From positions 37,881,194 to 37,945,193 of the forward strand of contig OV121086.1 in the NCBI GenBank assembly GCA_921293015.1: a stretch of DNA of 64,000 nt, written 5' to 3'. The notes beneath the pieces are model-generated. The model did not search any database. It had not been told where the DNA came from and saw only the letters and a list, made by a program, of their open reading frames with translations. This document shows, piece by piece, positions 32,553-58,859 of this stretch. The DNA comes from Phorcus lineatus (Eukaryota > Mollusca > Gastropoda > Trochida > Trochidae). A program made the position numbers and the translations under genes. The first letter of the stretch is position 1. Every line of letters begins with the position of its first letter.

Positions 32553-35282
32553 TCAATGGTCAGTCTGAGGCCGTTTCTCCAGCCAGTTGCTGACTCCGGG
32601 GTTGGAGCGGACCTTGTCCATGTTCGCCTTCAGTCTTGGAGCTCTGAACAGGACATCTGGTTCCCCCCCTACTGCATTATCCAGTGTATCAAACACGATG
32701 ATGTCAGCAACAGAAAGCTGCAAGTGTTCATGAAGACATGAGTTAAAATTATAACATATGGACCACGAAGATAAATGTAACAAGGTAACGTGCGAAGAAA
32801 ATATTGAAAATTTCATGTTGGAGAAATCGGTAAAGTGTGGGAGAAATGATATTGAGAAACTTAATAGAAGGATAGATATGTCAAATTGATTTAAACATTA
32901 AATCTAAAATATCTGTGGGAAATAAGGCATGTGATCTATGTTCAATGAACTTAGGACGTGTCAACAATTTATAATGAAACTCGTAACTTATCTAAAACGG
33001 GAACTCTGATTTTATGCTGAGGGCAATTTAGGCTGCTGGCAAACAACATGGTAGATCAGTGTTCATTTCATATTAAAATGAAAAACATTGACGTCACGGG
33101 AGAAAAAGCCGCGGGAGCGAGAGCTAAGATTCTTGAAAATGAACTGTGTGCATTTTGTAATAAGGAATTGTGAAATATGGACTTAAAATGTTCATAATTT
33201 GAACAAAAAACAGGATAAACAGAAAACATTGAATTTGATTTTGTAAAATAATAACACCTTCTTTGAAAAGAATCCAGATTCAGATTTCACGAGAAACTTC
33301 TCAAATATATTCACATATTTGGGTATTTCCTCTTCGTTTAGCTGCTTCTTTATTTCGGCCTGAAAACCGAAACACAAACATGTTTGATATACATTGGAAC
33401 ACGATACTCAAACCAGTATTCCTTTAGAGCATGGGGAATAACATAACTCAAATTCAGCATTCTTAAAGGGTGTAATACAACAAGCATTTAATCATATAAT
33501 AATTGATATTCAAATATTTCTAGAATATTGTCTCATTTTATTTGTCAATTTGGTCGATTACCTTTTTAGTTTCGTCACTCTCGAAGAAAGGTTTGCCAAG
33601 TTTTCTCCTCAGATCAGCTGCTGTAGCTATTATCTCGTTGATCACCAGGCATTCCATGGTGGATGATCCATGCAATCCTGTATAGGAACATTAGGATAAC
33701 ACAGGAACTCTTCTATTCAATGTAAGGTCCTCAAGAACATAAACTCGTCATATAAGAACAACTTGTTATTCATTTGAGTAACATAAATAAATTACAAATA
33801 CCAGTCATCTAAAAAGTGAATATATATTATATTGGTATAATTGAAAATAATGTCCTGTGGACAAATGGGTAAGCTGTTTATTCTATGAGAACTCGTCAGG
33901 ATGAGAATATTATACTTGAAAATAGGGTCACTCCATTTATGATAATTCAACTACTCGTGAAGAAACTAATCTATCTCTTTAAACAATTTTTAAACAAAAT
34001 TATAACTTTATTTCCCTTTTGACTATCATACACATTGACTACGACATATAAGTTAAGTATTACTCGACTAAGCCCTTGCTTTGTGTGATTACATTACCGA
34101 AAACCTCAGCTAAGTAGACAGCTATAGGAATACTCTGGGAGAACATCTGACCATCTACCACTAGAACAGGCAGCTGACCACACGGTGTCTCTGGAACATC
34201 GGTTTCAGGTATAAATGTTTAGATATTGAAAACTACACCTATAATTATCTGGCATTTGAACATCCATTGACATGTTTTGTTACTTATTAACAAACATGTA
34301 GTTTTATATCCAATTAGAAAACCCATACGTATAAGCATTTCACAAAGTTATCAAGGTTTCGAATTATTTGGAACATCGGTCGGGCAGTACATATATATCA
34401 TATCTTGATCCTGTCACTGCCAGTCACATTTATATACAGTTTTTGGAATCATCATGACCCTTTTGCTCTTTTAACAAATCGACCAAATCGATATTTGAAT
34501 TTGTACCATATGTTCATGATTGGATTAGAAGTCACTATATGACTGAAATCTGTAAGTGATACAACAGACTCCTTGTAACTGTCGTTAGTCTGTAGATACA
34601 AGTATACTTACTTAAACATTATTCTCTGAAAATGACTTATTGGATTAAGTCAACTTTCACCGGTCAATGGTATGCTTTTTATTGTACTTTTGCATATACT
34701 GTTTCAATAAATAAAAAATTTATAAAGACACGGATAACTTTTAATAGATGGAAATTAAACGAGAGAAAGACTTTGGTTCAATCTTTGACCATTTGAAGAC
34801 AAACATGCGTAAGATAATATTTTTGCATTCTCATTCATAAACGTCTTCGAGATTATTTGAGGAAGACAGGACGTCTAATTAACGTGATCTCACCCATCTG
34901 TTTCCATTACCGATATTCAGTTATTGAATGAATTGTTGTACTGATTTTGCCATTTTCTGTCTCAAAATGCATTCAGTGCAGGTCATTCTCCATCCTCGGT
35001 CCCCCATGGCTTTTTTCCCGATACTCTTAATAAGAAACTTGTATTGGAACATTAAGTCATGTGTGACAAAGGATGGTCATTCTATGAAGAAAATCTTTTA
35101 CATGACCACTCATCATCGGATTGAGTGATGAACGGTAATCTGCCCTCACCTGGTTTCACCTTTGGCCAGGTTTCTCTGGTATACCTTTTGTCTTCATACT
35201 TAACACCTGCAGCAGCAAACAGCAATCTGGCTATCTCGGCCTGGCCCCGGGCCTCAAAGTACATGAGTTTGTAATCAGGCAT
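32553..35282 (-). CDS. sigma-class glutathione S-transferase, copy F (complete, 5 exons)
   Basis: A 202-aa sigma GST. Coding exons: 35282-35150, 34190-34098, 33677-33562, 33359-33258, 32717-32553 (stop TGA). Phases are 1,1,0,0. The start [16 protein letters not shown] has catalytic Tyr8. Exon 1 ends in G before a GTGAGG donor, so the junction codon is Glu rather than Lys, Asn or Thr. Exon 2 reads TPCGQLPVL and [11 protein letters not shown]. Exon 4 is 102 bases (34 codons). Exon 5 is [10 protein letters not shown] to RPQTDH, with an unusual His C-terminus. Sequences beyond both ends of this gene recur at 44.7-44.8 and 45.3-45.5 kb without the gene body, so this locus was once duplicated. Confidence 0.93.
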
Positions 35283-37423
35283 CTGATTCTCTTAACGTTA
35301 ACTCTGTGAGACAAGGCGGCAATATTACTATTCGAATATCTTGTACTTATGGCTTCATTTCTTATCTGTTCATTTATGTATATATGACCTACATGACCAG
35401 CGTTTTGACAGAAGTAGAAACGATATTTAGCCTAGTTTGTGAGAATTGAGCCTTGGTGATGATGAAATGTGTTGATTCAGTGTCAGGGGTATATTCGGTA
35501 TGTTGAAAAAAAGAAGGTAAAGTTTGGTAGAAGATAAGGGATAGTTTTAAAAATCATCGACAATACATAAATTAATTACTTATGTTGTTACGTGTTTCAA
35601 TCAATTTGGTCAATACAGATTTGAGCAATTTGAAAGTTATATGTGTTTCCGTAGACATTTTACAGACGTTTCATGCGAAAGCAGATCTGTTCAGGGGTAC
35701 CTTACTTCATTTACAAGCGTAAATTTTTTAATCTGTTCATGTTAATTTTCTAAACGACGAACCACTCAATGAAAAGTTAGATAATAAAGAGCTCATTTTG
35801 AAAACAAACACATTATTAACAACACATGATTTGGAAAACGATAAGGCTGATAAATGTCATTGTCATTAAAAAAACCAAAATCATTTTAAAAAAAAAAAAG
35901 AAAAAAAAAATGTTTGATATAAAGGTATGTAATCACTGATTTAGATGAATATTCACTGAACTATCCAAACAACGTCCATCTTTTCCGTAACTTTCAAATT
36001 TAAATGAGAAACCTCCTGTGAAAATCACGAGAAAAACAATTATACTTTATTTGATACTTTACGAAATACGATACAAACCTTTTCTTTTTTTATCCTAGAG
36101 AAAAATTCCAGTCGATAAGTGTTCAAAAGAAAAGTCCTTAATGATATTCATACCAGAAATATTTATCTTGAAAATGCTTTTAGACATCTGTTTCAATTAC
36201 CTTAAGCTTATATGTAACAAGTCTTGAATCTTTAAAAGATTCACCTTCTGGAAGAGACAAACTGCAATGGTATCTTTCCACCTGAATATGCGTTTGTAAA
36301 GATTACGATAGGCTTTATGGAGAAAAATCCTATGACTTTTGTTTCAAGCACTGACTCCTTATTCTATCAGGACCAGACACCTTTTAAGTATGTAAAGAGT
36401 TAATGGTACCCTGAATAAGAATAAATTTGCGCTGTACCTTGAGTGAAACCTGGAAAATATGAATTGGTATTATGATACTTTGATAATTATAACTAGATGA
36501 AATGACAAATCACTATTTTTTTTCAAAGAAATGCTAAGAATGTTTATTTGAACGATAATTCTGCATTCGTAATTTAAGCAGAGTTAACACAATGACATGC
36601 CTAGACGAGCTAACACAATAAGGAAAAGACTTAGTTATTGAAAAGGATTGTACAGAGTAAACACTATGCATACGTAGGCAAAGTGACGTCGTGTGTTTCT
36701 GATGGAAATGAGGTGTGAAAAATCACGTACTTCCCTCTATCACTTTCGAAAGTTTTTGTGTGAACATAAAGAACTCATTTAAACTTAACATGAACAGGCT
36801 GACTGGTATGAAATGGAACTCCTACATTTTCTTGAGGAAAGTATTTTTTAGAGATAATTTATTTTTCTGGTAAGTATCAATTCAAAATACAAAGAATCAA
36901 TTAATAGTGGTTTTTGAAACGGAGAACAATGAACACAGATATTAACATTTATATTTTTGCTTTAAAAACCCAAATATAAATTTACTCTTTTAACAGGGCA
37001 TTTGAAGCGGGTGTTTAAGGTTGATGAACGAATACTAAATAAATACACGAGTTGTGTCGGTTATTGTGTATAAATATTCCATGAGGTACATAAAGGAAGA
37101 CGTAAAGTGATTTGTACATCTTATATCAAGTACATGTAGGTCGCAATAGCGTCGCTAACAGTATAGAATAGCTTTCGTGCTCTCAATAGGCTAATTATAT
37201 ACATAATCGGTTCTCTACAGCTAATTATGAAAAGAACCGTCATGACCTCCCAATTGTTAGATAAGACAACACAATTTGGCGACGGGATTGCCTTGGTCAA
37301 CATCCTGGTTTAAGGATGAGATCCCTCCCCTTACGCTCGAGTAAACGTGTGACGGCTGTTTTCACGTCATTTATACATGTAAAGCCGATAGTGAGAAGTC
37401 ATAGTGTTATGAAAAGCTTGAAA
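35283..37423. other. spacer collinear with 45.3-47.0 kb (segmental duplication arm)
   Basis: No gene. Blocks at about 35355-35500, 36000-36480 and 36540-36830 match, in the same order and orientation, 45345-45480, 45850-46200 and 46340-46560. This is the region between GST-F and the first secreted-peptide gene and its duplicate before the third peptide gene. An A-rich run lies at 35870-35910. Confidence 0.65.
37219..37258 (+). promoter_or_regulatory. conserved upstream block of peptide gene copy 1
   Basis: A block CAGCTAATTATGAAAAGAAC followed by CGTCATGACCTCC and CAATTGTTAG is shared with 46839-46878 and, less well, 41361-41400, each upstream of a peptide gene. The minus strand reads GGAGGTCATGACGG, two AGGTCA-like half-sites placed head to head. 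Conservation above the neighbouring sequence suggests a promoter element; the factor is not known. Confidence 0.45.
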
Positions 37424-39318
37424 ATGAAATTCTTTGAACACTGGGTTATGGGGTTCTTCATACTAGCGATTCTTTCGACCACAAGGGCCGAAGTTATGCA
37501 AAGGGTTGATTTTGAAAATGCAGAACCTTATACGGAAGATTTGCGGGGTGAGTATACACGATTAATTAACATATTTTGATAAGTTGTTTTTATGAAATTC
37601 TCAAAGTTTTGATATAATAGGATAACAATATTCTTCATCTACAAACACAATGTCTGTCAGATGTAGTATGTTTCATTTTTTTGTTCACGTTCTTGTTATT
37701 AACTGAGTGTTGTCCTAATTGTTTTCAATCGAGATTAGTTTAGATATGTTTAGACTTCAACGTTTAAACTTTTTTCATCGTAATATGAAACGTTCTATAC
37801 ATTTAAAATATGTCTTGCAGTGGATTGTAAATATATCAATCTCTCTGAATTTTCAACCTTCCCTATATTCAAAATATAGCTTGCAGTTACATTGCTATCA
37901 CAATCGTTTCCTATTTCTAAAATATATCTTGCAGTTGCATTGTAGCCTCAATCCTTCCATACATTAAAATATCTTGCAGTCACATTGTCATGTCAATCCC
38001 TCCTTATATTCAAAACATATCTTGCAGTCACATTGTCATGTCAATCTTTCCTTATATTCAAAACATATCTTGCAGTCACATTGTCATGTCAATCTTTCCT
38101 TATATTCAAAATATATCTTGCAGTTACATTGTCATGTCAATCCTTCCATACATTCAAAATATATCTTGCAGATACATTGTCATGTCAATTCTTCCCTGTA
38201 TTCAAAATATCTTGCAGTTACATTGTAATTTCAATCCTTCCCTATATTCAAAATATATCTTGCAGTTACTTTGTTATTCCAAACCTTCCTTATATTCAAA
38301 ATATATCTTGCAGTTACATTGTCACGTCAATTCCATACATTGGAAATATATCTTTCAGTTATAATGTAAGGTCATATCTTGCAGTTACATACATTGTCAT
38401 GTCAATTCTTCCTTATATTCAAAATATATTTTGCAGTTACATTGTAATAACATTCTTCTAAAGCTCTCATCTCACATCTCAAGAACAGATTACCGTAATT
38501 GGTGGAATCTGAGTTTTCATTTTCAGCAATTTTTCATACTTTAAAGAATTTTATGAACGGATGTAATAGATACGTGAAAATGCACTTTTTTGACAAGGAA
38601 AGGTACTCATAAGTAGCATAAGGGTTAAATTAGTAAACAAAAAAACGAATGGCGGAGTACATCATCAAAACATTGCAATGAAACACACTCGCAAGTTTTC
38701 GAACTTTATATTTTTCGCATTCTGGTAGTTCAATATTAAGTTTTAAAACGGTGCATCAAGTTAAAAAAATATAACGGATGACCTTGACCATACATGTAGA
38801 TAGAATGATCCAGCGAAACCAAGTTTCCGAATGACAAATTACAATCATCAATATCAGTATTGAGATGTCAGTTGAAATACATGATCTTCATGTCTGTCTG
38901 TCTTTTTTTATTCTGATTTATGAGAACATAAAACCGGATTTGTTTATCCTGACCTTACCATTTGAAATTTGATAGTCAATTACAGAAATATGCAAGATGA
39001 GATTAATTTACCCTACATAAAGTGCTTGTGTGCTACTTTTGTTTTTTTATCATCAGAAAACGTCACTTAAGGTGCATGGAGTTCAAGGGTTCTATCATGT
39101 TTGTGCACTGTTCCTACTCGGTGAAATCAAAAGCACAATTTGGTAGAACTCTATTACATTTATAATATATTTTCCTGCTCTTGCAATAATCTATAGTATC
39201 GTTCCAGATTATCATCCCACCCCGATACCACCTGGTATCGGATCAGGCAACCACGACTGGTGCAGACTCTGTCGATTGTTGAGAATACAACAGTGCATCA
39301 ACAGATTCTGTCAAATAA
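37424..39318 (+). CDS. small secreted cysteine-rich peptide, copy 1 (exons 1-2; last exon unresolved)
   Basis: Not a family I recognise. Exon 1 is 37424-37547 (124 bases, phase 1, donor GTGAGT) and exon 2 is 39208-39318 (111 bases, donor GTAAGT). The start MKFFEHWVMGFFILAILSTT is the ATG aligned among the three paralogues; the in-frame ATG at 37316 is not conserved. Residues 1-22 form a signal peptide cut near RA/EV. After an acidic, Pro/Gly-rich linker, residues 60-78 read CRLCRLLRIQQCINRFCQI, with spacing C-X2-C-X7-C-X4-C. Exon 3 is uncertain: acceptors after 39894 (tail TNM-stop) or 39905 (long frame to 40255) both fit the phase. AATAAA lies at 40244-40249. The intron holds a 48-bp minisatellite. 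Probably a secreted disulfide-bonded peptide; role unknown. Confidence 0.72.
37805..38450 (+). repeat. 48-bp minisatellite in intron 1 of peptide gene copy 1
   Basis: About 12-13 units with a 48-base period, most regular at 37975-38210. Each unit contains ATATCTTGCAGTTACATTGT and TCCTTATATTCAAAA. Because 48 is divisible by three, several frames stay open, giving repetitive frames that are not genes. Each unit includes a splice-acceptor-like TCTTGCAG. A single diverged unit sits at the matching place in the copy 3 intron (47588-47650), the likely ancestral state. Confidence 0.88.
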
Positions 39319-39338
39319 GTAAGTATGTGTGTGTGTGT

Positions 39339-39368
<30 letters not shown>
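39339..39368 (+). repeat. G30 homopolymer next to a GT run, 20 bases after the exon 2 donor
   Basis: Thirty consecutive guanines preceded by (GT)n and followed by a TGTGTG/CGCG stretch. It lies 20 bases downstream of the exon 2 donor of peptide gene copy 1. It could form G-quadruplex RNA. Length may be affected by sequencing error. Confidence 0.9.
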
Positions 39369-39369
<1 letters not shown>

Positions 39370-39989
39370 GTATGTGTGTGCGCGCGTGTGTGTGAGGCAT
39401 GTTTTGCAGGATTCAAGTCCACATCTTCAGAGTGATTTAACTAACCATTCAACAAATACACCTTCACTAAAATCGGAGAAACTGATTGTCGAGGAAGCAC
39501 AGTATGTTTCCTTAGCAACAACTTATTTTATGTTTTAAATAATAAAGAGTCAACAGTATTGTTTCTTAAACTAACTAATGATGACATTAATATTTTCGTT
39601 ATCCTTCGGCACCTAACTAAATGACAATTATGTTTTCAACCAACCTCTTTGATCAGGTAAACAAAATTAACTTTTGAGTATCCCTAGCAACTATTTCTTT
39701 TATGTTTTAAATGATAAAGAGTCAAAATTCTTGTTTCTTAAAATATCTCATGCTGACATTAATATTTTCACTATTCCGCCCTCAATTAAATAAGAATTAT
39801 GTTTTCAACCAACCATCTTTGATAAATTTTTTAGTATCATTATATTTAGTATATACAATGTTATATGAGCTGATTTACTTTTGTTTTGCATCAGCGAACA
39901 TGTAGACGTTGCGGTTTGTCAACCATCTTTAGAGGGAAAATTACCACGCAGCGTTTCGGTAATTACTTGGTGCCACGTCAACTTAACCA

Positions 39990-40249
39990 GCAAAGATGGA
40001 GTCTCTGAATCCCTTGTTGCCAACCCTACCTTATATCTACAGCAAGAGTCTGTGAATCCCCTGTTGCCAACGCTTACCTTCCCACTTCAGAATGAGTCTC
40101 TGAATCTCTTGTTGTCAATCCTGCTATTGCCAACACTGTCACCTAACAGGAAGAACCTCCGTAATTCCTTGTTTTCAACTCTAACAACACAGCATAGTCT
40201 CTCTAATACGTTTTTAAAAAAAATTGTACACATGTTTGTAATGAATAAA
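39990..40249 (+). repeat. degenerate 3' repeats and polyadenylation signal, peptide gene copy 1
   Basis: At least four loosely repeated words of the form GAGTCTCTGAATCCCTTGTT followed by GCCAAC, ending at AATAAA (40244-40249). Similar repeats follow peptide copies 2 and 3 (43310-43560, 49490-49920) and recur at 55440-55620. Probably the 3' untranslated region, although one frame stays open through it. Confidence 0.55.
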
Positions 40250-40619
40250 TTTTAGATTCATTTTAACTTTACTCAACAGGGGTGTATTTTTAAACAGAAG
40301 TTTCAAAGATGGGCATAACATTGTGTTAAAAAATTGCAGCATATGGTTTTGATATGAACATATATGAGGAGTTTTTTCTGCCTATTTTTCGATTTGAAAA
40401 TATTTCTAAAATTTTCATATAAAAGAGACACAGATTATGTTTCATAAATTTGTATGTGGATAAATAAAGAGCCAATATATACATGATCTGATTTTAATTC
40501 AAATCGACTGAATATATTTGCATCTTTATCTCATAAGTGCCGACATCATGATATTTCCTTGTTTCAAATGTAATTGAAAAAACCCCCCGGCTTCTTAAGT
40601 GCCAAGAAGTCTTAATCCC

Positions 40620-40860
40620 GTTAAATGTTTAAAGTGCAATTACCTATTTAAACACTTCCAAAATATGCAACCATATTTTTCGTTGCATATGCTTTGAAAA
40701 GGTTCCAAAACCACGCTTGAGGCCTCTGTCCGGTTTTCGATCATAAAAGTCGACTTTTACTTCTATTTTGTTATTATACTGAACTGATAAGCACTGAGAG
40801 TGTTAATCTTTAGAAACGTCGATCTTTCGATCAAACAACACAATGTAAGAAGATTTACAT
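40620..40860 (-). mobile_element. degenerate fragment of a family 2-like MITE
   Basis: The reverse strand contains GATCGAAAACCGGACAG (40726-40742) and a TGCTTATCAGTTCAGTATAA word matching the MITE at 8732-9219. The ends could not be defined. Confidence 0.5.
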
Positions 40861-41360
40861 ATCTGACCCCAACAACATACCCTGTGCCCCAATAAAGGGT
40901 GAATCGGAGTACCGAATTATATCCTGTGTGGTCTGCTTTTTAATTTAATGTAGAACTCATTTGACCCAAAATACATTAGACAACAATTTCCGGAGTTAAC
41001 ATGGATAGAAAGAGTTTATTTATGATTACTTTGGTACATATGGATGCAATATTCCATGTAAGAGGATTTTTTTAAATGAGATTTTTGATGAGAGGTTAGT
41101 AGTGGCCAAATTCGGATTAGGATGACATGTGTTAATGTTCCAATGGAAGTAATTCAGTTTTTGTAAGCATCAACTGTGATAAACTGATTCTTGGTTGGTA
41201 TCCAGAGTTTGAAAGTTAAAAGTGTCATTGACTTTAGAAAATATGAGATATGTAACTGTACAACTCGTCTCAACAAAGGAAAAACCACGACACATACTCA
41301 AGAAATATAGTTAAAGAGATAACCTGACCTACAGAGGAGTATTATAGATAATTGGTTCAC

Positions 41361-41400
41361 TGTGAGTAATTATGAAATAAAGCGACCTGGCTTGACATTA
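41361..41400 (+). promoter_or_regulatory. conserved upstream block of peptide gene copy 2 (diverged)
   Basis: GTAATTATGAAATAAAGCGA followed by CCTGGCTTGACA aligns with the blocks at 37219 and 46839. It lies about 90 bases before the start codon. Confidence 0.35.
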
Positions 41401-41487
41401 TCTCTGTACGGAATGTTATTTGAGTCAACATTCTTGCCATCGAATGTTTTGATAGTGAGAAGACATTTTGGGAAGATTGGATTTAAA

Positions 41488-42825
41488 ATGACATACTTAG
41501 AATACGGTATCATTGGAATCGTTATGCTAACAATTATAACGCATACAAGCACCGAAGTTGCCAAGTGGACGGATTTGGAGATCGTTGAACCTTTCTGGAA
41601 TGATATACGACGTGAGTTATATATATGATTGTGATTATATTATATACATTTTTCTCAAATAGAAATCTAACAATTCAAACAGAGCAGTATGAATTCCTAT
41701 AGGACGCTTTGACATCGTTCTTCGATCGAGTTCTTTTGCATTAAATTTGATCTTCTATAATCTGACCCCAATCTGATCAAAATCGACCGTGTCCCGAGGA
41801 AGCTTATAAATATTGACTCTTTCGGGATACGAACGACTCTATCAGGATTTTAGTCAGACTGATTCAAACCTTTTTGTACAACCGTTATGAAGAGATTAAC
41901 GTATTTTCAATGAAATAATTTCGGACAATAACCTACCACAATACATGAACGTACGTAATAATCAATTGCAATTCGTTTATGTATAAACAGTATCCTAAAC
42001 CAATAGTTTAACATTCCAAAACTAGAAGAGTGAATTGCTGTACTGAATTAATCTGAATACTATTGAATCATGAATATAACATAAAGGTATTTGTCGTAAT
42101 GCTCCAAAACGGTTATACTGAACGTCCAAATGGTATTATTAATTGTAATGACATTATCTGCTATGGCAAACCTCCCATCTCCGAAAAATTAATACCGATC
42201 TTTCATAAATATGTCATCTGTAATGATGGTAAATAATATCTCATTATGATTATTCTTATCAAACTATTAAGCAAACAGTTTGATTGGCCTCCTCGTGGCG
42301 ATGGTTATATAGTACTCGATTTATAATTGATATACAAAATCAATACGTTATGACAGGTAATGTCATGTTCAGTTATCATTTTCCCCAATATCTAGTCTTT
42401 AATCCGCAATCATAAATAAGTGAATATTGAATCCCTAGTTCCTCTTGTTCAAAGGGTATTGAGAAAAGGAAATTAATGAAAAGAAAGTAATATGACATTT
42501 ATATAAATAGGGTGAATTAGTGTTATATTTATCAGAACTACACATGTGGAAATAAATGTAGTTTAAACTGATGAAATTCAGTTGTATTGTCATGATGGTT
42601 CGATTTTCCTTTAACCTGGCAAAGTTAATGGGAGAGACTGTAGTAAAAACTATTTCATTCAATATTTCATAAACTATTTCATTGGCCATGTACTATTCCC
42701 CTATGGTGTTTCAGTATCACATATCATCAAACATCCAACTGGTATCGGATCTGGCAACCACCATAGATGCAGACTTTGTCAAATGTTGCGAATACAAGAG
42801 TGCATCAACAGGTTTTGTGAAATTG
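41488..42825 (+). CDS. small secreted cysteine-rich peptide, copy 2 (exons 1-2; last exon tentative)
   Basis: Paralogue of the 37.4-kb gene with identical exon sizes: exon 1 is 41488-41611 (124 bases, donor GTGAGT, phase 1) and exon 2 is 42715-42825 (111 bases, donor GTAATG). The signal peptide begins MTYLEYGIIGIVMLTIITHT and is followed by an acidic stretch (DLEIVEPFWND). Residues 60-78 read CRLCQMLRIQECINRFCEI, again C-X2-C-X7-C-X4-C, preceded by the conserved GIGSGNH. A possible exon 3 starts at 43287 after TTTGCAG and would add about 23 residues before TAG. AATAAA lies at 43558-43563. Divergence outside the Cys core, with frame, phase and cysteines preserved, argues for a real, selected gene. 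Confidence 0.72.
41770..41861. mobile_element. 92-bp deletion derivative of the 107-bp-TIR MITE
   Basis: The left end ATCTGATCAAAATCGACCGT and right end TTTTAGTCAGACTG match the termini of the element at 1386-1828. The middle is deleted. It lies in intron 1 of peptide gene copy 2. Confidence 0.65.
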
Positions 42826-43309
42826 GTAATGCAAAATTTATCACTATTGACAATGATTATCATATATCAAAATATTTTCATGATTTTTTTGGACCAAAAA
42901 GGTCAGATTTAGAATCACACCATGTAAATAAATAAATCTGGTGCAATATTTTGCGACCATTTCATCATATTCACATTTTGCTTGTACCGAATTCCCAGAC
43001 ATCTGAACCACTCAGCTAGCTAAAATCGAAGCTAATAAAAATATAAGAAACTGATATTTAACACGTTTTAAAATATTTTCATTTGAATTATTGTTATTGT
43101 AAAGGAATTCTGCCTTTCTACCTTGGAAGCAAAAATAAAAAGAGTCCATTCCTCGTAGAATATTGTCAAACCACATGGCACTTTCGATTGCTCACGGCCA
43201 ACACCCCTCTTATTCAGAAAACATATATTTTGTTTCCTCGCTTGAAGTTTCATGTTCTATATATGTATTTAAACATTGTTTGCAGTAATCCTGGTTGCTT
43301 CTGAAGAAG

Positions 43310-43563
43310 ATAACTCGCCAGAAGATTCTCTCTACCGCTTGTTGTCCATTCCGTAGGAGCCTCTCAAATTATGTGTATCCATAACGCAGGGATTTCTGCC
43401 TTGATTCACAAACTATGTTGATCCTCGATACCAACCCCATTTTGTTTGTCCTACATCTAAAATTCCTAATTGCCAAATCTGTTTTGCAAACGCTGGAAGA
43501 GTATAGGTTGCATTCCTTGTACCAAGGCAAGAAGTCTTAACGTAAACTGAAAGAAGAAATAAA
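43310..43563 (+). repeat. 3' repeats and polyadenylation signal, peptide gene copy 2
   Basis: Words such as GATTCTCTCTACCGCTTGTT, TTCCTAATTGCCAAATCTGT and ACGCTGGAAGAG match the 3' repeats of the other copies. AATAAA at 43558-43563 likely ends the transcript. Confidence 0.5.
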
Positions 43564-43699
43564 GTTCGTGATATCAATTCTGTTTTGCAATGTGTCTGTA
43601 AATCGTTGTCTTAAAAACTTAAACTTTTAAAGGAGTATCATCAACATCGTGTAAAACGACTGGAGACTGGAGGAAACCACTATTAAAACCATTTAATCT

Positions 43700-44430
43700 A
43701 TTTCTCCCATGCTTGAATTAAATGTATTGTTATATAACTGATATGTAAACTTCAAAGGAGATTATCGGATACCAACTATAGTTGAAATACACCTTTCATA
43801 TAGTTCAGGTGTGTACAATTGAGGTTTTATTTACATCATCATTTATAGGACCGAACTTAATTGGTACCATAGGTAGCAAAATTATTTAAGCTTTTGCTTT
43901 TTGAAGCTTTTATTGTGGCCTTTGTTTAGAACCTTCTGTCTTAAAACGATGTATCCTCGCTTTTTTGTCACTGTATATGCAATTTGTCTGCTGTAATGAA
44001 TGTGCCAAAATTACGTTTCAGTGATTTTCGATTTTGGTTTAGATAGTCTCCTGTGTCTACTTCTGATGTTACTTCTACAACTTCTACGTGTAGAACTGCG
44101 ACTATCTTCTTTCTTACTTTTTTTATTACACATACTACTACAAATTTCTTTGACTGCTTTTCCGCTATGACTGCGTCTTCTATGGTTGTCTTAGGTAATT
44201 AATGTAGAAGTAGAAGTAGCATTTGTAGAAGTGACAAAAGTACATTTGTAGTACTAGTTGTAGGATATTTTGTTTGCGCAAAAAGGACTGGTTCAAGTGT
44301 ATTTATGTAAGTGTCATTCAATTGTCTGCTTATAGAAAAGAAGATAGGTGGATTAGTTGTGAAAAAACGATGCCATATACCTACGTAATGAATAATTAAG
44401 CATCAATTACATCGGCGTGTTATTGTCATG
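43700..44430 (+). repeat. segment duplicated at 56.2-56.45, 59.16-59.21 and 60.44-60.87 kb
   Basis: 43735-43990 matches 56205-56450 (for example GCAAAATTATTT, TTTTTGAAGC and ATCCTCGCTT). The GCCAAAATTACGTTT block at 44010 matches 59174. The CTTCTA-rich stretch 44045-44260 and the block 44290-44400 match 60440-60720 and 60725-60870, inside intron 1 of GST copy G. GST-G exon 1 has no counterpart here. Confidence 0.65.
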
Positions 44431-44678
44431 TTTAAGATTCTATAGAAAGAAAGAATCATCAAAAACAACATTGAGGTTTGAACGAATATAACATTCACTA
44501 ATGTGATAAATCCTATCATGACTTAATTGCAAATACCTCAAGCGTTCTTTGTAATCAAATCACATTATGAAGAAAACAAGATGGCGATTCTCCTACGGAA
44601 CCGGAAGATGTGCTCCTTGACCAGGTAGTTGTCATCGGCCTCGATAAACCTACAACTCTGCCACTTTACTACTGAATG

Positions 44679-44830
44679 TATTTAACAAGTAATGATTTAA
44701 AAACTACAAAGATAATATAACGGACTTATCAAAGACCAATTAAGAGTTAAGAAGAAGTATACCTGTTAACGATGAGACAATGGATTCAGCTGGATCTCGA
44801 TGGTCAATGGTCAATGGTCACTGAAACATT
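44679..44830 (-). pseudogene. remnant of duplicated GST-F 3' flank
   Basis: Matches 32415-32570, the sequence just beyond and at the stop codon of GST copy F (shared TTAAAAACTACAAA, ACTTAT and CGATGAGACAATGGAT). The similarity ends about where the coding exon would begin. No GST coding sequence follows; the 107-bp-TIR-type MITE at 44903 comes next. Confidence 0.65.
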
Positions 44831-44902
44831 CTTGTCAACTTTTCAATTCAAATTCAAAGGTCCAATTATGCAATAACTGATCATGTAAGAACAATTTGTA
44901 TT

Positions 44903-45110
44903 CAGTCTGATTAAAATTGACTGTGTCCCGAGAAATAAAAGTTTCAAAAACTGACTTTCGCGAGATTCGAACTCGTTCTGTCTAGGGCTTCCTATTTCAC
45001 ACTATCTGACCAAATCCAAATGAGTTTAGAAGAGGAAGAATTCGACTCTCGATAAAGTTAATGACTTTAAAATTTTATTCCTCGGAACACAATCGATTTT
45101 AAAAATCAAA
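44903..45110. mobile_element. diverged copy of the 107-bp-TIR MITE
   Basis: The left arm starts CAGTCTGATTAAAATTGACT and the right arm ends with an inverted relative (CTCGGAACACAATCGATTTT). The arms now differ at many positions, unlike the perfect arms at 1386-1828. It lies where a duplicated GST gene would have been. Confidence 0.75.
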
Positions 45111-45344
45111 CGTATATGTTACACTAATAAATCACAAAGTTGTTGTTGTTCATTTGTGCTGGCTGGAATTGCTTGACTGTGAGGTGTGGTTTCCAATCCA
45201 ACCGGTAACTCGCTCCAAAAAGACTATTCCAGATAGTGTGATCTCAGTTTGTATTCTGGCATTTCAGTTGATAAATGATTTGAGACAGTGTGACAGTATT
45301 GTAACAACATTCGAGAATGCTGTAGTTTTTTCGCTGCAGCGTAT

Positions 45345-45480
45345 TTCTTATCGGATCATTTATGTAGATATACTCTACGTGACCAGTGTCTTGGCAGGAT
45401 ATTGAAACGAAACTTAGATGTGGAGAATTTGGCCTATGTGATGATGAATTTGATGTTTCTAGTTGAGCGGAATATGCTAT
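45345..45480 (-). pseudogene. remnant of duplicated GST-F 5' flank
   Basis: Matches 35355-35500, upstream of GST copy F (shared ATCATTTATGTA/TTCATTTATGTA, GACCAG and GTGATGATGAA). With the remnant at 44679-44830 it brackets about 500 bases that contain no GST exon. Confidence 0.65.
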
Positions 45481-45519
45481 AGAGGATATTATATTCGTGT
45501 CCATGACATACTATGTTTA

Positions 45520-45590
45520 CGACACGAGTGCTTAATATTAGTATTTCCCGAGCGAGAGCGAGGGATATATTGATATTAAGGCACGAGTAA
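45520..45590. repeat. hairpin repeat, copy 2
   Basis: The arms CGAGTGCTTAATATTAGTAT and, inverted, ATATTGATATTAAGGCACGAG-like sequence surround CGAGCGAGAGCGAGGG. It matches the copy at 2041-2110. Confidence 0.6.
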
Positions 45591-46838
45591 AAAAAGGCAC
45601 AAACATGTGAGTGACCAATTGAACGATGCAACATTGTAACACAGTTTTACACATGTAACATAAATTCACTTTGACCTAAGTTATGAAACTAGCTAATTAA
45701 CTGTCCACCTTTGTCATAAATTTAAAGGTTTAAAGAGTTAACCTCTACGCCAAACACAAGCAAATACCATTATTTTGATACATAGCAAAATATAACACAA
45801 ACGTTTTCTTTTATACAGTGATTACATAACTAGTGAACATTTTCAATTCAGAATTGTTCAAAATACCAGAGTGATACAACTATTCATACAAGAAGCATTT
45901 AAATTCTTTCAGACATTTTCTTGGAGAATGGTTCAACTTCATGAATAGACACATTACTTTGGCAACATTTTACCTACAAATGTACATAGTCACAATTGCG
46001 TTTGTAAAGATTATGATTATCATTATTGAAAAAACAGACTTGTTTCTAAGTCGGTCGGAACCAGACGCTTTCACGCATTGAAAGAGTTAATTGAATCTTG
46101 CATTTGAAATTTGGAAATAATAAGTGTGTCAGAAATTGCACTGTGCCTTAACTGAAATCTTGGAAATATGAATTGTTATTATGATGATTTGATGTTGAAA
46201 TTTATTAAATAGTAATTGTTCAATAATTCTGTATTTTCAAAATCCTAAAACACCATGATAGACTATCATGATTTAAACTAGATTTAACAGAATAAGACAA
46301 ATAACACATCATAAGTCAGACAGAAAATGTTTTTGTCTATGCTGAGTTAACAAAGTGACATTCCGAAACGAGTTAATTCAAGCATATAACATAGTTAAAA
46401 GGGATTTTATAGAGGAAATAAAAATTATAGAAATAAAAATGAGGCACGGATATTCATGTACTTTCTTCTGTTTTGTTTAAAGAGTTTGTTGGTGAATATA
46501 AAGAATTAAGAATAACTGTCAGCAGACTGACCGGTTTAAAACAATTAGCACTGATTTTTTATGAACACAAAAGGACAATGAAAACACACATACATATGTT
46601 AATAATTCTTATTAACCAAAAATTAAATTTGCACTTATCCTACAGGGTACTTGAATCGGGTGGTTAAGATTGATGACGAATGCTAATACAAAAGTCGTAT
46701 AATTCAGCATTAACAATTTTCATGACATGCATAAATGCAGTAATGACAGTTGTACCACTTGGATCAAGTTCGTCGTCAACAGTATTCCACAGCCATACCA
46801 TGCTTTGATTAAGCCAAGCATAGATAGTAATTGTCGAC

Positions 46839-46878
46839 AGCTAATTATGATATGAACCGACCTGACCTCCTAATTGTT
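46839..46878 (+). promoter_or_regulatory. conserved upstream block of peptide gene copy 3
   Basis: CAGCTAATTATGATATGAAC followed by CGACCTGACCTCC and TAATTGTTT, aligned with 37219-37258. The minus strand reads GGAGGTCAGGTCGG, two AGGTC(A/G) half-sites in direct orientation. Confidence 0.45.
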
Positions 46879-47005
46879 TCACTTTGTGGTCAGGATAGTC
46901 TTATCCAACATCTTGGTTTAGCATGAAGTACAACGTTTGGAGGCTCATTTCACGCCATTTTTATGTGCAGATACTGAGAAGACATATTGTTAAGGAGGCT
47001 TAAAA

Positions 47006-47904
47006 ATGAAATCCTTTGAACATTGCATTGTGTTGATCATTATTACAACGATTGTCACATCAACGGCAAAAGTTCTCCAAAGGACTAGACCTTTTTATAC
47101 CAACTGGCGCTTTCGATGTGAGTAACGAGATGTGTCACGATGTTCGTGATAGCCTAATTAATAATCTTAAATTATGCAATTTAATCGATAATTGTTCAGT
47201 TGAAAAGAATAACTATTATAAATTCAATTCATATGTCTTTATTCATTGTTGATTTAACTCTTTGTCGTTGATCTTTAGATGTTACTAATCTATAATTCAT
47301 ACATTAATTGACATTTACAGTTTGTGAATTACCACCAATACTATATATCTACTAATATGTACTTTAAGAAGGGGAGTTAATTTGCAATTAGGCCATGTAA
47401 ACCTTTTATTTACGTTTAGATTGAACCCCTTATTTGATTTTAGGTGAAAATTACCAACGTTTACGTGTTCAAGAATTCATTATTCATTGGCTTAAGTGTT
47501 GTTGTGATGATTATTAATCTTAAAATGAATTGCAAGCAATATCTTAGACTATCGTGTGAACTTTATTCATTTCAATGTTAATTTTTTCTCACATTCAAAA
47601 TATAACTAGCAGCTACATTGTAATGACATACTTCTTTTGCTATCATATCTGGGAGTTAATTACCATCGTTTGATCATTATTTGATTTGACCATAATTAGT
47701 GGAATAACATTGTCATTATGTAGAAGTGATCTATGGTAGTGCAATGAAAAGAATGCACAGGAATATTCATAATAAAAGACAGAATGCAGAGTGGGAATGT
47801 GCATGCCCTACAAGGGAAAAACTCGAAGTAGCTAAGGGGTCAAAGCAGAGACCAAAAGTTTGCTTACAAAGATGATACATCATCAAATTGTTTTATTTTA
47901 TCTG

Positions 47905-47992
<88 letters not shown>

Positions 47993-48580
47993 GTTTCTTC
48001 TTTCAATTTTGTCATTTATTGAATTGTCAATCCGGATAGTTTGTGTTTTGGAATTGCGTTCCTTAGTATCGAAAGTAAAACTCCATATACCCCGTTAAAA
48101 TGTATCACAGCGTTGTTTTTATCATACACGGTATATGGCTTCATTTGTCGATTGTGCGTGAATTATAAACAATAACAGACTAAAGAGTAATGACTTCGTC
48201 CTATGGTGTTTCTGCTGCACCACATAAATGCACTATATTTAGGTATCTTATACAAGTAGTCTGTACATTCTTTCAAACGACAACTAAAATAACTAAAGTT
48301 TATGAAGTAACATCTTTACAAATATAACTTATGGCCATAATTAAGTAACATCTTCAGTTCTTGTGATAAGAGTTAGAACCTGAAATATTGACCAAAAGAA
48401 CAGAAAACTGAAAATATAAATTGGTACTGTTTTATTGCATTTAATAGATAAATATATGGCATTTATTAATCTCAAGTATTGTTCCAGATCCTCTAGGAGG
48501 TGGTTCTTTCAGTGTCTCTCGGTGCGAGCTCTGTCTCATGAGGGGAATACGAGAGTGCATCAACAGATTCTGTACAATAA
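47006..48580 (+). CDS. small secreted cysteine-rich peptide, copy 3 (exons 1-2; last exon tentative)
   Basis: Third paralogue. Exon 1 is 47006-47117 (112 bases, phase 1, donor GTGAGT) and exon 2 is 48488-48580 (93 bases, donor GTAAAT). The signal peptide is MKSFEHCIVLIIITTIVTST; the linker is shorter and basic rather than acidic (VLQRTRPFYTNWRFR). Residues 50-68 read CELCLMRGIRECINRFCTI, with the same C-X2-C-X7-C-X4-C spacing. An acceptor after 49424 (GTGTAG) would add TCGKISRRQLL before TGA, but this is weak. The position aligned with the copy 1 AATAAA is GAATTC here, so 3' processing may differ. The intron holds one 48-bp unit and a long TA run; a MITE lies 220 bases after exon 2. Confidence 0.66.
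47588..47650 (+). repeat. single diverged unit of the 48-bp minisatellite
   Basis: Contains ATTCAAAATATAACTAGCAG followed by CTACATTGTAATGACATACTTCT, aligning with one unit and the 3' flank of the array at 37805-38450. Confidence 0.6.
47910..47990. repeat. (TA)n microsatellite, about 40 units
   Basis: An uninterrupted TA run in intron 1 of peptide gene copy 3. Confidence 0.95.
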
Positions 48581-49489: not shown

Positions 49490-49920
49490 GGTACTTCCTT
49501 GTTGCAAACAAAACAGCAAGAGTCTCTGGATTTTTCTTGTAGTCAACATCTGCTTTTCCATCGCAATTTATTTTAGTAGAGTATTTGTTACTAACCTCTG
49601 TTTATGGCAATGAAAAGTCTCCGCAATGTTGTTTTCTCTATCACAATAAAGTGTCTTTATTGTAAACTCTGTTTTACCATCGCTGGAAGAGTCTCTGTAA
49701 TTCCTAGTTGCCAACTTTGATCATCTTCAAAGCATAATCTCTCCAGTTTTTTTGCCTTCTCGAGCTCCGTTCGATTTCATCACCAAAACAAAGGCTCTCT
49801 TGTTCCTTGTTGCCAATTCCGCTCGTCACCACCGTATAGGCTCTCTAGTTCGTTGTTGCCATCGCCGTTCAACAACTCATCACCACAAGGTAGTCTCTAG
49901 TTCCCTGTTGTGAACTTCGT
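49490..49920 (+). repeat. 3' repeats downstream of peptide gene copy 3
   Basis: Six or more loose repeats of AGAGTCTCTGTAATTCCTAG/TTGCCAAC type, more extensive than in copies 1 and 2. Further units at 55440-55620 suggest that this 3' region was split by the LINE insertion at 50.8-54.8 kb. Confidence 0.55.
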
Positions 49921-50799
49921 TTATCACCACAGCATTGTTTTTTCCTACTTTTATGTTTGCAATGAATTCAATCTCAAGTACATGTTACCCTTTCTGCAAG
50001 AATATTAGATATGTCTCTTTGAAAGAATTTTACAAAAACATCTTGTCAAACCAAGTACCTCTTACACGATATACGACCTGGATTCACGCCCCCTTTTAGG
50101 ACATGGATACGACCCCGTTGTGAAACGGTCGTAAGGCATGTCGTAAGAGGATCGTAAACAAGGTCGTATGCACTACGATCTCCTAAATTTAGGAGCCCTT
50201 TGCTCGGCGATAAATTCAAATTCTGAGAAGATCCAGATCTATCGCAGCTATCGAGATTTAACCAGACAAATTCGGGAAATGCTGAATTGTTAAAATTTCC
50301 AGTCATTAGGGCTGGCACATGTTATGCCATGCGGGGATATTTGGTTGGTTTGACTGTGAATAGTAAGAAGAATCATTGCAGTAGCATATGTGAGTTGACG
50401 ATTTCTTTGTGTACAGAAGTCAATGCAACATTAATCATCTAGGTTCTATAACACAAACATTATATGAGAATCAACACACATAATACCTCCCTGAAGTTTG
50501 TTTGGAGTATATTTTATATTTTCAAGGAGAGAAGATGTGACAAGGTATTGAAACATTTTGATTTTGAAAATTTCACACCTGAATATTTACAAAATCGTGG
50601 ACTCACTCAATATATCGATTAGTGTTCAATGGTGTTCTTCTGTTTCTTGTTATTTATTTTCACGAGTAATCAACGAATATTACTAACTTAAGAAGAAACG
50701 TTTATTCAACGTATCTGTTCCCGGAAATAGCATTTTAAAATTGGTACCGTCTAGATATGTGTTACGATGTGCAGAGATTACTTCGAGAAAGATAACTCT

Positions 50800-52434
50800 A
50801 TAACTTTCGAATAGATTTCGAAAAGGCATTTGACTCAGTTGATTGGGACGTGATTGGGAATGTTCTTGAATTTTTCAATTTTGGCCCAAATATCAGAAAA
50901 TGGATTAGTACTTTTTACACAAATATAAATTCAAGTGTGCTTGTGAATGGTTTCGCATCAGATTTTTTTGACATAACTCGCGGCTGTAGACAAGGCGATC
51001 CATTATCGGCATATCTTTTTATCCTATGTGCAGAAATTCTAAGTATTATGATCCGTAACAAAAAAAAGATAAAAGGAATAAAAATAGGTGATAGCGAATA
51101 TCTCATCTCGCAGTTTGCAGACGATACCTCTTTGACATTGGATGGAACAGAAGCATGCCTTCAAAGTACACTCCAAATACTAGAACAATATGCTTCATTT
51201 TCAAGTTTGAAAATAAATACTAGCAAAACACAAGTTATATGGATAGGTTCACTGAAAAACTAAAAACAAAACGTTCTGCAAAGAACATAAATTAGATTGG
51301 TCAAAAAAGGACTAATCCTTGGCATAACATTTACACACAACTTGGCAGAAATGGTAGAGAGAAATTACAGACATAAATTGAAGCAAATTAAAATTACAAT
51401 GAACCATTGGCTCAGAAGAGATATCACACCAATTGGAAGGACAACTGTCCTGAAAAGTCTTATTTTACCAAACTTAAACCATGTCTCTAATGTATTACCT
51501 AACCCGAACGAAAGTACCATCAAAGAAATCGAAAAACTCTGCTTTAACTTTGTTTGGAAAGGAAAGCCAGATAAAATAAAACGTAAAATAATAACCCAAA
51601 ATTACATTGAAGGAGGCTTCAGAGTACCGGATATACGAAATACATTGCTTTCACAAAAAATAAGCTGGGTGAAAAGACTTTATAATTCTGACGATAAATC
51701 AAAACTAAAGACATTGTTTCAATTAAATACATCTCCTTTACATAATGATTTCTATCAGTACAACGAAGAATCAATCATCAATGATGTATTAACTAAAAAA
51801 CTAATGAATTTTGGAAAGATGTCTTACATGCGTGGGGTCACTTCATAAAACAAAAAGGAAATAATGTTAAAACCCAATCCGCTCTCTTATCTCAGCCAAT
51901 ATGGAGAAATGATAACATAAAAATTAACAAGAAAACTTTAAACAACAAGAGCATGTCAACCGCGGGTATTTTCTTTATCAATGATGTTGTGGAAGATGAT
52001 GGTAAGTTTCTCGACTATGAAAAGATTATCCAAACCTACCAATGAAAGTTAAACTTTCTGGATTACGCGGGTATTGTTCAATCAATAAAGGGGTACTTTA
52101 AAAAATCAAATGTCTCTATAAATATAAAACTCAACACCCCGTTCATCCCGTATTTAATTGAAGATATTGTTACTAAGAGAAAGGGATGCAGAGCCTTCTA
52201 CGACATATTGCATAATGATGATGACTGTAAATCCTAACGGAAATGGGAAAAAGTTCTGAAATGCTCGATCAATGAAGAAGAATGGAAAATAATACACAAA
52301 GTACCTTTTACGTCTAACCTTAGCTCAAAATTAACATGGTTTCAATATTCCGTTCTACATAGAATTTTACCTACAAAGGATCTCTTACGTGAGATGAACA
52401 TGAAAGATACAAAAACATGTAATTTATGTAAATA
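50800..52434 (+). pseudogene. LINE ORF2 fragment: reverse transcriptase and C-terminal region
   Basis: The frame contains FEKAFDSVDW, the RQGDPLSAYLFILCAEIL block and the catalytic FADDTSLTLD. Then follow the thumb-like LKINTSKTQVIW and the conserved LKSLILPNLNH and FVWKGKPDKIKR blocks. Frameshifts near 51255 and 51835 and several stops (for example near 52045 and 52238) break it. It ends at CNLCK, the first half of a Cys/His motif whose second half (ETIIHLFYDC) resumes at 54381 after the insert. No endonuclease domain is present. Confidence 0.85.
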
Positions 52435-54790: not shown

Positions 54791-55439
54791 CAAAAAACCA
54801 AACCCAAACAAACTCTATAGCTTACGATTTGACTTTTTTTAACAAACAACCAAGGCCAGGGCAAATTCAAAGCAACGTACAATACATTCATTCAATAGAA
54901 TTCGCCTGCACCTTGGAATATGGGGCGAACTGACTGGCTGATTTAAGGTATGTCACAGCCAAACCTGACGGTTCTCGTAACGGGGCTTGGTGAGTTCTAT
55001 ACGCGTAACGTAGTGGAGCATTTAAGATTTTATTTTTATCAGATTATATATCTGTCATACAAACTCTAAGTGTAAGATTAATTTCTCTTGTAATTTCCCC
55101 TATGTTCTGATAATTTATATGGACGCTTTAAAACCAAGTTGATTTACAATTCTTGATAAGAGCTTAAACCATCTTAACCAGACAATGCATCCATATTTAG
55201 AGAAGAAAAAACCTTCCTATGTTTTATGAGGCAAATTTTGGCGAACGTATAGCTCGGTGACAAATCTGAGAAACACTCAGGAACTCGATATGATTAGTAA
55301 AACTTAGGTAAAACCTCTCATCCGCTATAGAGTAGAGTGAAGAACAAAAGCAGCCATATAATGTCGTTTCGAGCACTGGTCGAGAGTTTCGCTAAGAATT
55401 CGGTGACATTCAAAATGAAACACGAAGAACGAAGGAGGA
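54791..55439. other. spacer after the first LINE, nothing recognised
   Basis: AT-rich sequence without a recognisable exon or repeat. Confidence 0.45.
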
Positions 55440-55620
55440 GTATCTGAAATACCTTATTGCCAACTCTGTTTTACCAAGGCGGAAATTGTACTGGCTATTC
55501 CTTGATGCAACTTACCAAGGCAGGAAGAGCCTTTGTCATTTCTTGTTGCAAGCTCAATTAATCAAGACAGAGAGAAACTTTGAAAATTCGTGTTACCAAT
55601 TCTGGTTGCAAAGAGTCTGT
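55440..55620 (+). repeat. displaced 3' repeats of the peptide-gene type
   Basis: CTTATTGCCAACTCTGTTTT, CCAAGGCGGAAATTGTACTG and AAGGCAGGAAGAGCCTTTG resemble the 3' repeats at 43310-43520 and 49490-49920. No peptide exon precedes them after the LINE, so they most simply belong to the 3' region of copy 3. Confidence 0.5.
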
Positions 55621-57128
55621 AGTTTTTATCTCTTAGAAGAAGTACCATAGAAAAAATAACTTTTGGAAATAATACATGTACGTTAATTTATTTCACCATT
55701 TAGAGTAAAAAACTAACAATTATGTGTTTCTCCATATCTCCCCACAGATTTAGCTACGGCAATAATTCCTAAACAACAGCTGTTCTAATTCAAGCCTTCT
55801 CGAGTTTCCTGGAGGTTCACCTAACGGCAACATATTGCAAAATAAACTACCTTGTAATATTACAGCCAATGTCATACAGTGCAATGCAATGATCAAGCCT
55901 CTAAATAGGGCTAAAGGGTAGAGAAGACTCAAAGTGCAAAGTTCATATTCGAAAAAAGTTTAACTTTCCGAAAATCCGGAAATATCTTATACGCTTTCAA
56001 TGACAACTTTTGATCCGGCGTCGCTGATTGCGCTACTTACTTTGAACTCATCCAATCGAAGCTCTACATTTCTTGACCGAGAAACGTTCGTATAAGGACA
56101 GAGGTTGTATAGGGATTCACGACAGAGCTACCTCTAGTTGGTTTCTATTGAAACTATTTCGTCTATTTCTGACATGCTATAAATAAGTGCATTGTTTTTG
56201 AAAATTTGTTTATGGTAACTTCAAAAGAGGTTATTGGATACAAAATTATATTTGAAATACAGTTCTTATATAGTTACAGATGTGGCTTTATGCATATCCT
56301 CACTTACACGACCATAATTAGTTGGGCAGCAAAATTATTTGAGTTTTTGCTTTTTGAAGCATTTATTGTCGCTTTTGTTTGGAACTCTCTGTCGTAAATA
56401 TCAGTTAACGCAGCATCCTCGCTTCTTTAACTGTATTGACAATACATCAAATGAAAAGAAAGATATCTAGACGAAAGGTTGGTGAAAAGGGAATGAATAA
56501 CTGACTTTATCTACTACTTATTTCTTTTTGAGATCCAACCAAAATAATGTGACATTAGCATAAAGTATCATTTGGCAATTCATACATCTATGTACATTTC
56601 AAACTTTCTCTTAAATATAATATCTAACAGTTTCAACAAAATTAAACAATGCATATATTCATCTTATTACATCTGAATGAATGTAATCGACATCCTTATC
56701 AAATCAATCCATCTGTTTATTGTAGTTTAAGGTTTAGTGTTCTTTTTAAAAGACGATTTGTAAAAAGTATTTCTTAGAATAAAACGACATTGCGACACTC
56801 GAGCTCATTAATAGTCAAATGAAGTTCTCTTTAAAATTTGATGTAGTTGATTAACAACGATTTACATATTCTTTTAAATTTGGTTATTAATATTTGCGTA
56901 CAATTAAACACATCAAGCATGTCAGAAAGCAACAGCTGTTTGCGTTTTTATGCAGTTAATAACATGAACATTTATTTATGAAGCGACAGACAAAATGTTT
57001 TATTAGAGATGACACATGTTATCACTGAAAGGCCACTGTCGTTATTACTTATTTAGGTGTAGATTTATATTTGTATATTTTGTTTGTGCACATAACAATA
57101 ATGAAACTGACAAAGGTTATTGAAAACA
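55621..57128. other. spacer, partly the arm of a segmental duplication
   Basis: 56205-56450 matches 43735-43990 in the same orientation. The rest shows no gene. The small frames here carry no family signature. Confidence 0.5.
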
Positions 57129-57143
57129 AATACACATGAAAAT

Positions 57144-58859
57144 AAAGGGTATTAAATTTTTTGACATAGAATATTTATTAACACAGTTCGCAGATGACGC
57201 TACGATAATCCTGGATGAAACGGAAAAGAGTTTTCAGGCAACATTAGAAATACTAGACAAATATGCTAAATTTTCTGGCCTTAAAATAAACATAGACAAA
57301 ACTAAAATTATATGGATTGGTTCAAGGATGTTCTCACATTTACAATATTGTAAGACTTTGAATCTAGACTGGTCTCAAAAACCCTTCACTTTACTTGGAA
57401 TTCAGTTCCAACATAATCAGGCCGAAATGGTCGAAAGAAACTATAAAGATAAACTAAAACAACTTGATAAAACAATGACAACGTGGTTGAGAAGAGATCT
57501 TACTCCATTTGGTAGAATTACTGTTCTTAAAAGTCTTATATTACCTTCACTTAACCATTTGTTCACTACTTTGCCAAATCCAGATAATAATACCATTCAA
57601 AATTTACAGAAAAAATGTTTCAAGTTTGTATGGAAAGAAAAGCCTGATAAGATCAAAAGATATACGATAATTCAATCTTATAAAGATGGAGGGCTAAAGG
57701 TACCTCTGATTCTTGAAACAATACAAGCTCAAAAGCTTTCATGGTTACGAAGAACATTTGTAAAACATTCAAATATTTCAAACCTTATCAGTTTTGCCGT
57801 TTCTACAAAAGGCCTTCACCCAACTGAGATGGGGACAAACTATCTTAGACAATCTGTTATTCCGCATATAAAAATGTATTTTGGAGAGATGTTTACGAAT
57901 CATGGGCAAGCATACAATCCTTACAAAAAAATGAAGATACTGAAAACGAAACTTCAAAAAATATATATGGGCGAACGATAATATAGTTGTAGGGAAAAAA
58001 CCTATTATCTATAAAAACTATTTGAAAAAAAATGTTAAATTCCTCAACGATCTACTAAATATAGATGGTAGTTTTCTCACATATGAGAATTTTATTTCAA
58101 TTTACAATATTAATACAAACTTTTTAAAATATCAAGGTATCATCAACTCCATTAAAGTATATCTTATTTCGAAGCAGCTTGAACTTTATAAAGTAGTAGA
58201 ACCTTTCATGCCTAATAATTTACGTATCCTCTTTAAAGAACGTAAAGGCTGCAAGATATTCTACTCAACCTTGCTTGAGAAACACACTTTAAAAACAAAA
58301 CTTAATAGCCAAGTGAAATGGGAAAGGGATATAGAAGCTGATATAGCAGATGAACTCTGGAAAACTTATAACTATATACCTTTCAGAGCAACAGTTACCA
58401 CACATCTGAGATGGTTACAATATAAAATAATACACAGATGTATTACAACGAACAAAGATCTGTATAACTACAATATGTTAGAATCTGCATCTTGTACATT
58501 CTGTAATGTTGAAACTGAATCAATTATTCATTTATTCTATAAATGTGTACATGTGAAAACATTGTGGCATAACTTAGTAGACTGGGTTGAGTACAAAACA
58601 GGTACTAAACTAAATCTGAGTGAAAAACATATCATTTTTGGATATCCAGAAAAAACGAAATGATGTTCTTAATCTGATTATCATTGCAACAAAAAACTAT
58701 ATATACGGTAAGAGATATTTAAAGACAATACCCAACTTTATTGGATTGAAAAAATATCTACATACCCTATATGCTATTGACAAATTCACTGCCTTTTCAA
58801 ACTGTAATTACGGTAAGTTCTTCACATTCTGGTCATCTTGCCACAATCTCTTCACATGA
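57144..58859 (+). pseudogene. LINE ORF2 fragment, three frames
   Basis: It begins just before the catalytic motif (QFADDATIILDET) and continues through LKINIDKTKIIWIG, LKSLILPSLNHL and FVWKEKPDKIKR. Two frameshifts, near 57960 and 58620-58660, split it into pieces of about 279, 213 and 79 codons. The second piece holds CTFCNVETESIIHLFYKC, a Cys/His zinc-knuckle-like motif (C-X2-C-X8-H-X4-C). Compared with the first LINE it has fewer stops, so it is younger. The endonuclease and most of the reverse transcriptase are missing through truncation. Confidence 0.88.

Follow-up and report, generated by a model that had tools for sequence, protein, structure and literature searches.

Tandem genes for apparently secreted four-cysteine peptides, possibly ligand-like, in the gastropod Phorcus lineatus

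Three neighboring genes in a 64,000-nucleotide stretch of the Phorcus lineatus genome (contig OV121086.1, positions 37,881,194 to 37,945,193; hereafter the window) appear to encode a family of secreted, disulfide-stapled peptides that is slightly more likely to be ligand-like than antimicrobial. The genes, designated g1, g2, and g3, start at 37.4, 41.5, and 47.0 kb of the window on the plus strand of this contig (C11 of the 958-Mb genome) and look real and constrained. We tentatively favor, while holding it short of probable, the reading that this small gene family gives rise to secreted four-cysteine helix-turn-helix peptides acting in a ligand-like manner. An earlier note, made from sequence, had proposed an unrecognized family of secreted cysteine-rich peptides here, and that proposal is sustained by intact frames and splice sites, by an excess of synonymous over nonsynonymous divergence in all three gene pairs, and by the lack of a match in Pfam or PDB.

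Gene structures were predicted from sequence, and the 3' ends of all three models are provisional. Exon 1 (g1, 37424..37547; g2, 41488..41611; g3, 47006..47117; 124, 124, and 112 nt) opens with ATG, exits in phase 1, and is followed by the donor GTGAGT in every gene. Exon 2 (39208..39318, 42715..42825, and 48488..48580; 111, 111, and 93 nt) lies behind an acceptor ending in CAG in each case, and exon lengths differ between copies (124/112 and 111/93) by multiples of three only. The signal-like exon, the phase-1 intron, and the second exon carrying the cysteines were likewise recovered in all three genes. Exon 2 is in each gene a 1–1 exon, ending in phase 1 before the donor-like sites GTAAGT (g1), GTAATG (g2), and GTAAAT (g3), and because such a site closes it in all three genes it is probably not the terminal exon; the layout first described stands, but did not include this feature. 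A probable third exon of g2 (43286..43356) translates as VILVASEEDNSPEDSLYRLLSIP, an acidic tail, followed by a stop and, downstream at 43558, AATAAA. For g1 several candidate acceptors are present, of which that at 39895 would yield a three-residue tail, and a possible, provisional exon 3 (39933..40255) consists of an open frame that spans a degenerate repeat of 48 bp. No placement was found for a third exon of g3.

The predicted proteins begin with strongly hydrophobic N termini (best nine-residue Kyte–Doolittle mean 2.9–3.2) that are signal-like, with cleavage points placed by eye. Behind this segment, the remainder of exon 1 is acidic in g1 (net charge −4) and g2 (−3) and basic in g3 (+5), in agreement with the divergence of this linker reported earlier. 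Exon 2 encodes exactly four cysteines in each gene, spaced C-X2-C-X7-C-X4-C and including (Q/E)CINRFC, and the 17-residue cores read CRLCRLLRIQQCINRFC (g1), CRLCQMLRIQECINRFC (g2), and CELCLMRGIRECINRFC (g3). The core is preceded by GIGSGN in g1 and g2 and by GGGSFS in the same place in g3. AlphaFold modeling of the core predicted helices at residues 17–29 and 32–38 (block predicted local distance difference test [pLDDT] 85 and 81), consistent at moderate confidence with a helix-turn-helix. Arginine is the last residue of exon 1 in all three genes and could be a monobasic cut site. Neuropeptides of nemerteans, brachiopods, and phoronids, in the part of the account drawn on here (PMC8557429), usually carry a second basic residue three to six positions before a monobasic cut; the suggestion is a weak one, since a nearby second arginine was seen, by eye, in g3 alone.

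Divergence among the copies supports purifying selection. Over the exon 1–2 coding sequence, the ratio of nonsynonymous (dN) to synonymous (dS) divergence (NG86) was 0.38, 0.50, and 0.29 for the three pairs, with dS of 0.92–1.65, and dS exceeded dN in every pair (p 0.001, 0.024, and 0.0002; one-sided Fisher tests on rounded counts). Constraint tends to be strongest in the core, with more change in signal and linker: dN was 0.44–0.56 in exon 1 and 0.08–0.26 in the core, and nonsynonymous change was significantly lower in the core for g1/g2 (one-sided p 0.0003) and g2/g3 (p 0.018), but not for g1/g3 (p 0.15). Neutral dN/dS across the core had been named beforehand as grounds for rejecting the family; the values obtained (0.12, 1.06, and 0.26) decide little, because each pair offers only 9–10 synonymous sites. 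At the nucleotide level, the exon-2 sequences of g1 and g2 share 83% identity across 95 bp (E 6e-24), and an alignment persists between the upstream regions of g1 and g3 (64% over 485 bp). Little or no alignment was obtained between the introns, apart from a repeat unit of ∼50–75 bp in intron 1 of g1 and g3. In g1 this intron holds ∼11 copies of a 48-bp unit containing the 3'-splice-site-like TATCTTGCAG (37853-38361), and in g3 one similar unit lies at 47575-47649. A run of 30 G residues adjoins exon 2 of g1.

Kinship with described families was checked against Pfam, PDB, and the open-access literature, so that a named animal family could still match. Pfam returned no family for the three proteins at E<=10, with filters that drop most weak matches, and PDB returned no chain at E<=10 for a profile of the three exon-2 sequences. 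Alpha-hairpinins, plant helix-loop-helix antimicrobial peptides, share with the present peptides the number of four cysteines; their fold may be shared as well, given the predicted core helices (block pLDDT 81–85, mean 68), for which no significant fold match was obtained. Their defining array, in the portion of PMC11591084 used, is C-X3-C-X(4-20)-C-X3-C, whereas C-X2-C-X7-C-X4-C is found in all three genes and in a probable relative elsewhere in the genome (below). Big defensins have a beta-defensin-like domain with six cysteines, unlike the four core cysteines and predicted helices seen here; the dibasic site that ends their prodomain also has no counterpart in any of the three spliced sequences. 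They are nevertheless similar in being secreted, as the present peptides apparently are, and in having a cysteine-rich region whose 5' end is marked by a phase-1 intron, as stated in the section of PMC7203481 on which this comparison draws. Mussel CRP-I peptides are likewise a small family of secreted peptides in which a pro-segment accompanies a cysteine-rich module, but according to the relevant part of PMC10138031 they have six cysteines in a knottin fold, and their signal and propeptide are conserved, the opposite of the pattern of constraint found here. Judged by title, the papers found for the CX2CX7CX4C spacing all concerned SHI-related (SRS) plant zinc-finger proteins, in which it forms part of a longer zinc-finger array. 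Since these are plant transcription factors and the present peptides are apparently secreted, we regard the agreement in spacing as coincidental.

The copy number given at the outset, three in tandem, holds for the neighboring genes but is probably incomplete. Protein searches of the whole genome, which give lower bounds on copies, recovered all three genes with each exon 2 as query, and exon 2 of g1 alone added a remote place on contig C37 (8637335-8637433). Exon 1 of g1 matched only itself and g2 (E 0.05), and not g3. The C37 exon translates as EGFGTGNIDMCGVCHSINDPECKERHC, in which the cysteines are spaced as in g1–g3 and the lead resembles GIGSGN; a good acceptor, CTCCCTTTTCAG, lies upstream, and its end is either a donor or an in-frame stop. 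Based on how often each amino acid occurs in a six-frame translation of 224 kb of this genome, ∼985 occurrences of the bare spacing would be expected per genome, ∼0.1 with a preceding GxG[ST], and ∼0.0002 with the full GxG[ST]GN lead, a pattern chosen after the C37 match had been seen and hence a guide, not a test. A consensus query, derived in part from C37, recovered g1, g2, and the C37 exon and no other place. The C37 exon is a probable distant relative, located on another chromosome, and the family probably extends beyond three copies. The CINRFC motif on its own means little, as a DNA pattern for it gave 45 matches genome-wide against 39 for a reversed control. Minus-strand open reading frames resembling exonuclease 1 and soluble guanylate cyclase, by eye, flank the C37 exon (C37 8588001-8667800).

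A further copy may have decayed within the window. By eye, a degenerate repeat of ∼45–48 bp recurs at the 3' end of each gene (39999-40210, 43300-43540, and 49510-49930) and again at a fourth place (55400-55650). Tandem Repeats Finder reported a 48-bp repeat of 2.6 copies at 39999-40122, and blastn backs part of the wider pattern (40149-40203/49685-49743, 43469-43502/49659-49692, and 43455-43534/55442-55527). A strict scan with one repeat unit found close copies in g1 and none at the other 3' places, so the wider repeat family is degenerate and in part a by-eye reading. Open frames cross the units in g1 (39869-40255, 128 codons) and at the fourth place (55396-55650, 84 codons), both with a leucine-rich pattern that, by eye, shares its frame with the g2 tail; longer stretches contain three, eight, and four stops in the forward frames of g2 and seven, five, and four in those of g3. 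At the fourth place (55396..56353, plus strand), three segments (55442-55527, 55583-55621, and 56145-56353) match g2 at its 3' end and in its downstream flank. Because the flank itself is matched (43680-43900 against 56145-56353, 70%), a 3'-end remnant of a decayed fourth copy near 55.4 kb is suggested, although the place may instead be a dispersed repeat.

The promoters share one short element. In the 600 bp upstream of the genes, TAATTATGA is the single 9-mer common to all three, at 37222..37230, 41367..41375, and 46842..46850 on the plus strand (−202, −121, and −164 from the respective ATG). Both strands of 144 kb together contain it five times, including the three copies upstream of g1–g3. 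Some common 9-mer was present in 4.2% of random triples of 600-bp stretches, and the match therefore gains weight only through its similar position and aligned surroundings.

In the mechanism we favor, the signal would be removed, perhaps with a further cut behind the last arginine of exon 1, and the exon-2 peptide would then fold as a helix-turn-helix held together by two disulfide bonds and act outside the cell. More weakly, the tendency of constraint to be strongest in the core, with signal and linker changing, suggests that the peptide may serve as a binding ligand, either locally or between individuals, and not as a membrane-lytic defense peptide. Exon anatomy, purifying selection, the conserved core, the exon-end arginine, the spacing and lead of the C37 exon, the AlphaFold helices, TAATTATGA, and the lack of a kappa-B-like site all point this way without yet making it probable. 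An undescribed family of secreted ligands defined by the 1–1 exon, the C-X2-C-X7-C-X4-C spacing, the GxG[ST]GN lead, and, ancestrally at the least, a leucine-rich repeated tail, with members on two chromosomes, is unlikely as a complete description. Several observations weigh against the favored mechanism. The AlphaFold model was built from four sequences, had a mean pLDDT of 68 and a predicted template modeling score of 0.37, and gave no significant fold match; core dN/dS reached 1.06 in g1/g3; and no dibasic (K/R pair) site is present in the three spliced sequences. The link to C37 consists of an E value of 0.5 and the spacing, a reverse genome search with the C37 exon recovered only itself, and a signal exon for this relative was sought and not found. 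The cores of g1–g3 are moreover cationic (net +4, +2, and +1) and the peptides strongly amphipathic (helical moment 0.79–0.85), as expected of a membrane-active peptide.

These last properties fit the nearest rival, a cationic, amphipathic, disulfide-stapled host-defense peptide secreted at epithelia or by blood cells to bind and disrupt microbial membranes, its precursor silenced in g1 and g2 by the acidic segments. The acidic exon-1 segments of g1 and g2, the acidic tail of g2, the tandem array, and, within the excerpted description in PMC7203481, the phase-1 intron that big defensins also have before their cysteine module agree with such a role. In g3, however, the segment is basic; the exon on C37 has an acidic net charge (−3) and lacks amphipathicity (moment 0.36); two of the three pairs show significantly less change in the core than in exon 1; and no kappa-B-like site occurs in the 600 bp upstream of any of the three genes. 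The basic segment of g3, the acidic, non-amphipathic C37 exon, and a constraint that lies in the core rather than the leader place the ligand reading slightly ahead of defense, which is itself a realistic if doubtful explanation.

Structural peptides of mucus, egg coat, or shell, with disulfides for stability or cross-linking, would also be small and secreted, as these apparently are, and the leucine-rich repeat in the open frames of the g1 3' end and the fourth place would, if translated, be in keeping with a matrix protein. The core, however, is not repetitive but short and specific; a third exon is putative, and that of g2 is short. This reading is improbable. Venom and salivary peptides of predatory animals commonly combine signal, pro-segment, and cysteine core in tandem copies, the layout seen here; in the present genes, conservation does not lie in the signal exon, and such an origin is less probable still. 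Decayed, functionless genes, alike through duplication alone, might explain the degenerate 3' ends and the G run beside exon 2 of g1, but with dN/dS of 0.29–0.50 at dS of 0.92–1.65 and with frames and splice sites intact, this is very improbable.

Elsewhere in the window, exons resembling sigma-class glutathione S-transferase lie on the minus strand (237-374, 8398-8490, 17204-17272, 18685-18822, and 32556-32672) and on the plus strand (59971-60105 and 63598-63690), the class being assigned by eye and, for the first two exons taken together, by a PDB match. Open reading frames resembling reverse transcriptase of the long interspersed nuclear element type occur at 50796-51848 and 57124-58663 and, in pieces, a Tc1/mariner-type transposase on the minus strand at 11979-12812, all by eye; a tandem array of a 145-bp unit occupies 52579-54260 (11.6 copies, 91% matches).

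The finding would overturn nothing, as lineage-restricted secreted cysteine-rich peptides are common. In mussels they are described as such in the part of PMC10138031 cited. If expressed, the family would add an unassigned disulfide-peptide framework with a defined, synthesizable core, and its probable relative on C37 would offer a handle for tracing it in other species.

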